This document shows, piece by piece, positions 55,588 through 56,967 of a stretch of DNA of 64,000 nucleotides (positions within the stretch are counted from its first letter, which is position 1; each line of letters begins with the position of its first letter). The translations under genes and the position numbers were made by a program. Under the pieces are notes generated by a model. That model had not been told where the DNA came from, ran no database searches, and was given only the letters and a program-made list of their open reading frames with translations. Source of the stretch: Hygrophila difformis (Eukaryota; Streptophyta; Magnoliopsida; Lamiales; Acanthaceae); assembly GCA_030278955.1 (NCBI GenBank), contig JAOANR010000002.1:14344238-14408237 (forward strand), in the 5' to 3' direction.

Positions 55588-56967
55588 GTAAGTTAACGCT
55601 TACACGGTTTTGGGAGAATTAAAATACATGTAATCTAAAGAATCAAAATCAAGAACTTAAAATCTGTCAACATGTGATTTTTTTTACCGGCACAACGATT
55701 TTGTCTAATTTTTCCGAACCTTAAAACGTCTTTAAACGGAAAAACTTAAAACATGAAAAACGTTCCTAAGACATAGATCTATCTACTGTAAAATTTCATA
55801 ATTTTTCATCGTGTTTTGATATCCGAAAACGACCACGAACAGACCTGCCTTTGGTTTAGATCTTGAAACGGTGGCAGATTTTTAGTCTGAACTTGAGGTT
55901 GATTTTTGACTTAGATCTAGACCGAATCAGGATTGGTGCTAAACATAAGAGTTGTAGATCTATGCGTTAAGAACACCTCCGTAAAATTTCAGAATTTTTC
56001 GTGATGATTTGATATATGAAATCCAGCCGAAACCGAACCGCTAGGATGTGGATCTTGAAATTCTTGACGGAACTTAGGTCAGAACTTGATGACGTTTTTG
56101 ACTAGGGTTCTAGGCCGATTTAGATCTTTTGCCGAACATAAAAGTTGTAGATAAACGTCGTAAGATGGTCTCTGTAAAATTTCATTAAATTTGGAGTTGA
56201 TTTGCTATGGTAGATCTCGAAATTTAGGAACTGCTGTCGTAAAATTCGGACAGATTTGTGTTTCTGCGAAAATTGATGTTTTTGACATGTTTCGGTATCT
56301 TGGATTGAAAAAGTTAAAACACGAAAGTTGTTCATCTCGACGTTTCTGAGTTAGTAGTGAAATTTCGGAATTTTTGGAATTAAATCGGAATTTAGACGAA
56401 TTTTAGAGTAAACAGTGGTTTACCGGAAGTCAAATCTTGAAATCTTGTTGAAAAATGAAATTAGCCTTTAAGGTTTAAATGATTGGGAATTCCTTTGAAA
56501 TAAATTACACATGAAATACGATGCTTTCCGAAAGGCAATTGAGATATAATGCTTGCCGAAAGACAATTGAGATATAATGCTTGCCGAAAGGCAATTGATA
56601 TATAAAGCTTGCCGAGAGGCAATTGATAAATAAAGCTTGCCGAATGGCAATTGAGATATAAACTTGAAACCTGAGACATGAGATATGAAACTAGAAGACT
56701 CGAAAATTGTTCCGTTTATATTATGCCTTAAAGTATGTCTTGCAATTGTTTTACTTTGCGAATTATGTTTAGGATCTTATGAAATCTCTATCTTTTAAAT
56801 TATGCCATTTAATTATTGTTAGATAAATAAGTTAAATGATGTGGTGTTGTGTACATGTTTTCTCAAAATCTAAATAACGGCTTGGAAACCCCTTAATCAT
56901 GTTTGTGTTAACTTACTCAGCAAGTTTTTTGCTGACCAAACCATATTTTTTTTCCTTTTTCTTTCAG
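55588..56967 (+). other. Candidate leader intron in E4 LTR
   Basis: The donor ATCTGTAAGTTAAC (G at 55588) and GTTAACTTAC at 56907-56916 are perfect complements over ten bases. A hairpin CAGCAA...TTGCTG (56918-56934) with CTGAC follows, then a 22-nt pyrimidine tract and CAG ending at 56967. An upstream donor TTCGTGGTAAGAT sits at 55412. The length is 1380 nt. Confidence 0.55.
56521..56660 (+). repeat. 28-bp hairpin array in E4 LTR, 5 units
   Basis: Five units of CTTGCC-GAAA-GGCAAT type. Loops are GAAA, GAAA, GAAA, GAGA and GAAT; two units have a stem mismatch. Confidence 0.9.

Follow-up and report, generated by a model that had tools for sequence, protein, structure and literature searches.

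The long LTRs in a 64,000-nt stretch of Hygrophila difformis DNA (hereafter, the window) contain a predicted leader intron whose two ends are complementary to each other. Pairing starts at the first intron base and covers about 25 nt, and it covaries between families: most of the pairs have changed on both sides in a set of 12 introns, to a degree that no shuffled control reached, and six divergent introns agree. The structure of the paired ends is well supported by these sequence comparisons. As to its role, the reading that we favor, with a probability of roughly 60%, is an intron that masks itself: donor and branch site are likely hidden by the helix joining its ends together with an abutting hairpin, in which the predicted branch site lies, and splicing of part of the RNA would thereby be held back.

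Predicted leader introns in the long LTRs

Which elements carry these introns? The long LTRs of the window were mapped by self-comparison, which placed those of element E0 at 8279-10917 and 16579-19161, those of E2 at 34538-37305 and 41276-44081, those of E3 at about 32830-34537 plus 44082-45038 and at 46025-48686, and the plus-strand LTR of E4 at about 54707-57314; stretches of further LTRs are also present. The E4 LTR terminates in GTGTTACA, shortly upstream of TGGTATCAGAGC, which we take to be a tRNA-Met-type primer site. Matches to Retrotrans_gag (PF03732) lie near E0 and E4, at 11649-12017 in the window and at 3029-3691 of a separately fetched stretch, L059. The ORFs at 58006-58698 (E4) and 15371-15802 (E0) had no Pfam match and are, from their position, possible gag pieces. 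No pol was assignable to E0 or E4, so these may be gag-only long-LTR elements. A nested gag-pol element, running from 61001 into L059 and by its position a different one, seems to divide E4.

The window holds other mobile sequences as well. An element at 24145-29503 has 673-bp direct repeats that are 97.6% identical and a 926-aa ORF, presumably copia-like as judged by eye. A 439-aa ORF antisense to E2 (38704-40023) matches Transposase_32 (PF20167) below the cut-off (41.2 vs. 45 bits), and there is a weak match to a "putative plant transposon protein." Rfam gave no match within the window at the gathering score.

Ten LTR copies in the window have a predicted leader intron. The E4 intron (55588-56967, plus strand, 1,380 nt, within the LTR) begins with a GTAAGT donor and ends in a pyrimidine-rich tract and CAG; a TATA box stands at 55263, and on entering the intron GC content falls from 0.47 to 0.33 while T rises from 0.23 to 0.34. 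Its predicted exon 1 holds no ATG and the intron holds 30. The other plus-strand copy is a solo LTR (Sp; intron 20490-21905). On the minus strand lie the introns of E0 left (8626-10048) and right (16926-18293), a solo LTR (Sm; 12271-14317), E1 (31077-32424), E3 left (33176-34432) and right (46371-47624), and E2 left (34880-36349) and right (41619-43087). U2-type signals are nearly complete in this set: GT in 9/10 (E0 right has TT), CTGAY and YAG in 10/10, and a pyrimidine tract of at least 60% in 9/10, with the weak tract of E1 below that filter.

A preliminary description of this DNA had named pairs of a donor and a complementary downstream motif in the long LTRs, 1.25-2.05 kb apart, with the motif about 50 nt before the YAG. 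We found the pairs where they had been placed; the predicted introns measure 1254-2047 nt, and the A of the motif's CTTAC lies 48-52 nt from the YAG end. The donor loss that it reported for the right LTR of E0 (GT to TT) is likewise present, at 18293. This natural mutant has TTAAGTTAA instead of GTAAGTTAA, and it retains the remainder of the helix and the hairpin that follows it. All 16 exact matches to the 9-mer TTAACTTAC in the window, on both strands, are predicted leader intron ends (donor or downstream motif). With one mismatch allowed there are 34 matches against 22 expected, a count that 2 of 100 shuffles reach, so the 9-mer by itself is merely mildly unusual.

Complementarity of the intron ends

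How far does the pairing extend? The complementarity is longer than the nine bases first reported: starting at intron base +1, it continues without gaps over about 25 nt, in sequences that are specific to each family. In E4, the 5' strand at 55588-55612 forms 20 of 25 possible pairs with the 3' strand at 56892-56916, which ends in CTTAC. The corresponding counts are 19 in both E0 copies, 21 in both E2 copies, 22 in E1 and in both E3 copies, 23 in Sp, and 15 in Sm, whose ends pair poorly unless bulges are allowed (duplex of -25.4 kcal/mol with bulges). Setting aside the nine consensus-like positions, we asked where the true partner ranks within the full set of windows from its intron. Rank probabilities were low for E2 left (0.0007), Sp (0.0007), E1 (0.0008), E3 right (0.0025), and E4 (0.017) and weak for E0 left (0.115) and Sm (0.76). 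Combined by Fisher's method over seven insertions, which as related copies are not fully independent, they give 3.8e-9, or 4.1e-6 when duplex energy is used.

In the window copies the base changes within the 9-mers are one-sided G-U changes, and the 9-mers alone therefore do not prove pairing; two-sided changes do occur in families fetched from elsewhere in the genome, at pairs 7 and 8. It is these changes, together with pairs 10-25, that supply the proof.

Further families came from twenty 10-kb stretches, some chosen near earlier matches and others at arbitrary positions. They were scanned for the acceptor module, which contains CTTAC (pairs 1-5) and nothing upstream of it; donors were sought at sites near GTAAGTTA first and then, for six modules, by ranking all GT sites by pairing. 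In two of the stretches the best GT donor stood far above the rest: 548 nt upstream of the module with 24/25 pairs in L058 (next best GT, 16) and 596 nt upstream with 23/25 in L048 (next best, 17). Pairs 7 and 8 are A-U and G-C in both, in place of U-A and A-U, and pair 8 is G-C in L049. Three modules with two or more errors (in L056, L057, and L028) had no convincing donor partner.

Over all loci, 43 introns with both ends were collected, representing 27 distinct end pairs. The set leaves out modules with two or more errors and those whose pyrimidine tract is weak, E1 among them; two places are duplicated (L012 is the window E4, and L013 is L059). The lowest-energy GTAAG partner was a family-type donor in 42 of 43; only E0 right departed from this, being paired with a wrong GTAAG since its own donor is lost. 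Best partners ranged from -18.7 to -36.1 kcal/mol and the next best from -4.3 to -21.2. Two modules on the minus strand of L061 (4120 and 6619) share the same best donor, 1261 and 3760 nt upstream; this looks like a duplicated or rearranged LTR end. On the exon side of the donor, CAG was found in none of the 43 nor in E1, and TAG was found in E3.

Among 12 representative introns, 81.7% of cells are paired and 18/25 pairs have changed on both sides. The covariation score is 0.488, compared with 0.203 +/- 0.025 when shuffled (0/500) and 0.126-0.172 in slid registers, and none of the 500 shuffles reached the observed value on any of five measures. Six divergent introns score 0.603 vs. 0.218 shuffled (0/500). 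Pairs 11, 13, 14, and 15 are unpaired in at least half of the representatives; pairs 1-6 form in 12/12, in introns that were selected by GTAAG and CTTAC, and the support comes from pairs 7-25. With E1 added back by hand, own-family duplexes came to -27.8 kcal/mol vs. -18.3 for cross-family ones, and no permutation of 200,000 was as good on three measures. For a single intron the own partner ranks best in just 6-7 of 12, because related families can exchange strands.

Does the helix prevail when the whole intron folds? Full-intron partition functions gave donor-to-motif pairing of about 0.97 in E4, 0.99 in both E2 copies, 0.89 in E1, 0.80 in Sm, 0.76-0.91 in E0 right (over +2 to +6), 0.63 in E3 left, and 0.58 in Sp, with low values in E0 left (0.28) and E3 right (0.02); among the fetched loci it was 0.998 in L048 and 0.28 in L058. 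From this unevenness, other folds, including a local hairpin at the donor, compete in some copies. When the 40 nt upstream of the 9-mer were shuffled in L058 and L048, the 9-mers still paired (mean 0.64 and 0.98); because folding with a shuffled interior does not discriminate, the claim of a helix rests on covariation and not on folding.

The local hairpin pairs GTAAG with a CTTAC a few nucleotides downstream (55588-55603 in E4, plus strand), as is possible in 7/9 intact window donors. GTAAG followed by CTTAC within 3-10 nt occurs seven times in the window, each time at these donors, against a mean of 0.25 (largest, 3) per window in 100 Markov-shuffled windows. Allowing T for the first C, 21/27 distinct end pairs have it; it is absent from the second intron of L049, the minus-strand one of L051, two of L061, Sp, the E0 right row, and also E1. 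Our first idea, that the downstream motif is a plain branch site and the local hairpin the donor's partner, was dropped because the full-intron partition function and the extended pairing show the long-range helix to be real. The local hairpin remains an alternative state beside it.

Some of the introns contain a 28-nt tandem repeat, at 56512-56661 in the E4 intron and likewise at 8953-9185, 12492-12976, and 17170-17430. Its unit, TTGCCGAAAGGCAA, is able to fold into a short stem capped by a GAAA loop; there are 5 such units in E4, 12 in the window Sm, 0-10 in fetched introns, and none in 18 of the 43, including both Sm-type copies of L053. Speculatively, the units are possibly a protein-binding array carried solely by unspliced RNA. 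The start of predicted exon 2 (56968-57010 and equivalents) has a self-complementary stem of the TATGCATCRTCATATGCATA type in E4, E0 left, and Sm; the stem is absent from E2 and Sp.

Acceptor module and predicted branch site

A second hairpin (TCAG...CTGA) is predicted directly after CTTAC in 10/10 window copies. In E4 (TCAGCAA...TTGCTGA, 56917-56935, plus strand) it follows the helix with 0 nt between them, and its 3' arm carries CTGAC (56932-56936), a YTRAY match whose A stands 32 nt away from the AG end. The fifth pair of this hairpin, among 29 distinct modules, is C-G in 14, T-A in 11, and mismatched in the rest (C-A in 3, A-G in 1); 4 of the 29 fold poorly. CTGAY stands 26-33 nt before the AG in every window copy. 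Arabidopsis branch sites follow a YTRAY consensus in a range of 20-36 nt, as reported in PMC5640774; in motif and in distance CTGAY is the best branch-site candidate, and we infer that it serves as one. From the end of the 3' strand of the E4 helix to the predicted branch A, itself part of the abutting stem, the distance is 19 nt.

Helix and hairpin are connected by a single strand, CTTACTCAG, that is the reverse complement of CTGA followed by GTAAG—of predicted branch site and donor in one. It is identical in the 10 window copies; in fetched stretches, L046 has CTTACTCGG and L061 has CTTACACAG or CTTACGCAG, each one base away from it. The acceptor module occurs at 13,220 places in the 915-Mb genome, compared with 13 for a reversed-pattern control. 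Versions in which the A of CTTAC is changed (CTTB) number 81 (reversed control, 308) and those in which the A of CTGA is changed (CTGB) number 52 (control, 0), low counts that do not on their own prove constraint, since the copies may be young. A search for relatives in viral and prokaryote contigs returned nine viral loci, apparently variants of one, and two bacterial genomes; we took these as chance matches.

Possible roles of the fold

How might paired ends serve such an element? We favor the masking reading because the donor itself is taken up in the pairing, as is the predicted branch site in the stem that abuts the helix. This reading builds on a structure that covaries, on stems that abut, and on the linking strand, and it supposes splicing of the predicted intron, a branch site at CTGAY, and a fold that limits splicing, shifting the balance between spliced and unspliced RNA. 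The linking strand would pair its CTTAC with the donor GTAAG and its TCAG with the branch-site CTGA, so that the two sites U1 and U2 have to recognize would be occupied by one strand. RNA that remains folded would keep the intron and provide the full-length template, a role that suits it because the intron lies inside the LTR and is required for LTR rebuilding. Where spliceosomal helicases open the fold, or U1 binds before transcription reaches the 3' strand, the RNA would be spliced, losing its 25-42 upstream ATGs and becoming a better Gag messenger. In most of the families seen, the local GTAAG/CTTAC hairpin could keep the donor paired until transcription has produced the distant strand. Computed U1 pairing amounts to -5.4 to -10.7 kcal/mol vs. 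-18.7 to -36.1 for the helix (E0 right left out); with partners 0.5-2 kb apart, U1 may nonetheless bind first. Splicing would not clear the leader, because predicted exon 2 keeps 8-11 ATGs within its first 350 nt.

Because it sits inside the LTR, the intron would be missing from LTRs that are reverse-transcribed from spliced RNA. DNA copies of a spliced junction were found at none of 55 exon-1 ends in the window and loci (counts overlap between family queries), and an Sm-type junction was found nowhere in the genome at up to three mismatches, a weak test that covered one family. This absence fits unspliced templates or separate RNA pools and equally fits no splicing. For BARE1, separate RNA pools are argued in PMC3735527.

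A bolder version of the masking reading is possible but doubtful: CTTACTCAG could act as a splint in cis, stacking branch site and donor coaxially and setting the branch adenosine beside the first intron base in substitution for U1 plus U2, as an RNA switch between genome and messenger. If that were true, the acceptor half of such a switch would be present more than 13,000 times in one genome.

The same geometry can be read the other way, as the sequence fits masking of the sites as well as bringing them together. The helix might aid splicing like the zipper stems of yeast, holding the donor of a long intron beside its branch site until opened by binding of U1 and U2. The helices abut with 0 nt and would, by the geometry we envisage, set the donor G beside the predicted branch A, and the zipper stem of RPS17B is described as essential for efficient splicing (PMC12350175). 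We nevertheless consider this role somewhat unlikely, for it is the donor and predicted branch site themselves that are covered, not their flanks, and the arrangement would break the spacing limits modeled in PMC12350175, where stems need at least 10 and at least 20 nt of clearance to fit the A complex. Alternatively, the downstream motif could itself be the branch site, through TTAAC or CTTAC, with the second hairpin just shortening the distance to the AG. TTAAC matches YTRAY, and the As of both CTTAC and CTGA are seldom changed, as the CTTB and CTGB counts given above indicate. The idea is nonetheless unlikely: TTAAC is not constant, reading TTAGC in the window Sm copy and giving way to other letters in L058 and L061; CTTAC has no purine where YTRAY requires one, and with its A 48-52 nt out it falls past the usual range; and CTGAY suits motif and distance alike.

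Still less likely is a fold that serves the unspliced RNA, with splicing secondary, by closing a 0.5-2 kb ATG-rich loop for ribosome shunting or by marking full-length RNA for packaging. The 25-42 ATGs within window introns are in keeping with it, as are the GAAA-loop hairpin array of many E4-type introns and the shunting of plant pararetroviruses past a structured leader (PMC2241666). Yet the pairing has its first base precisely at a GTAAG donor, and a YTRAY site and YAG come after it; the predicted exon 1 of E4 has no ATG, so that no short ORF ends before the stem; and the array is missing altogether from many introns, two Sm-type ones among them. That a donor consensus merely happens to mirror a branch-site-like consensus, with no structure at all, is hardly credible. 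GTAAG and CTTAC are near consensus and invariant in the 12 representatives, in part because these were selected by them, but the two-sided changes at 18 of 25 pairs fall outside the consensus and refute coincidence unless the alignments are wrong.

How does the masking reading compare with known systems? The Saccharomyces zipper stems described in PMC12350175, e.g., that of RPS17B, are likewise strongly divergent in sequence between species. They leave both sites free, whereas the LTR-intron helix starts at +1 with 0 nt of clearance at the donor and is accompanied by a second stem holding the predicted branch site. A closer likeness, and a repressive precedent, is the splice-donor hairpin of HIV-1 (PMC4974535), in which structure masks the 5' splice site in the leader of an LTR element that needs unspliced RNA; here, too, donor nucleotides are paired in a conserved structure. 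The HIV-1 hairpin is local (nt 282-300) and is reported in PMC4974535 to have few covariations, whereas here a helix of about 25 bp spans 0.5-2 kb and adjoins a branch-site hairpin, in a predicted intron that is part of the LTR. In BARE1 and EVADE, according to PMC3735527 and PMC12786077, splicing yields a Gag messenger beside full-length RNA; the BARE1 intron comes immediately after gag, and in EVADE it is the protease domain that is spliced out, in contrast to a predicted intron in the LTR leader before gag with paired ends. The 35S leader of CaMV, from a plant reverse-transcribing element, is likewise large and structured with several short ORFs, and the portions of PMC2241666 available to us mention no helix that begins at the donor and masks a splice site.

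Plant elements are described in a 2025 review as generally without introns, with exceptions including Ogre and EVADE (PMC12786077). Among the open-licence PMC titles and abstract beginnings listed for leader or LTR introns in retrotransposons, for Ogre, or for gag-only elements, none describes such a structure. The division of RNA between translation and reverse transcription in plant LTR retrotransposons is a standing question, as noted in PMC3735527. What the window and the fetched loci add is a structured, covarying leader intron, predicted to lie within the LTRs of a set of families; the genome has 13,220 copies of the acceptor module. The fold gives a directly testable rule, in a natural donor mutant and family-specific compensatory pairs, and it would represent a long-range intron fold that spans 0.5-2 kb and is strongly supported by covariation.
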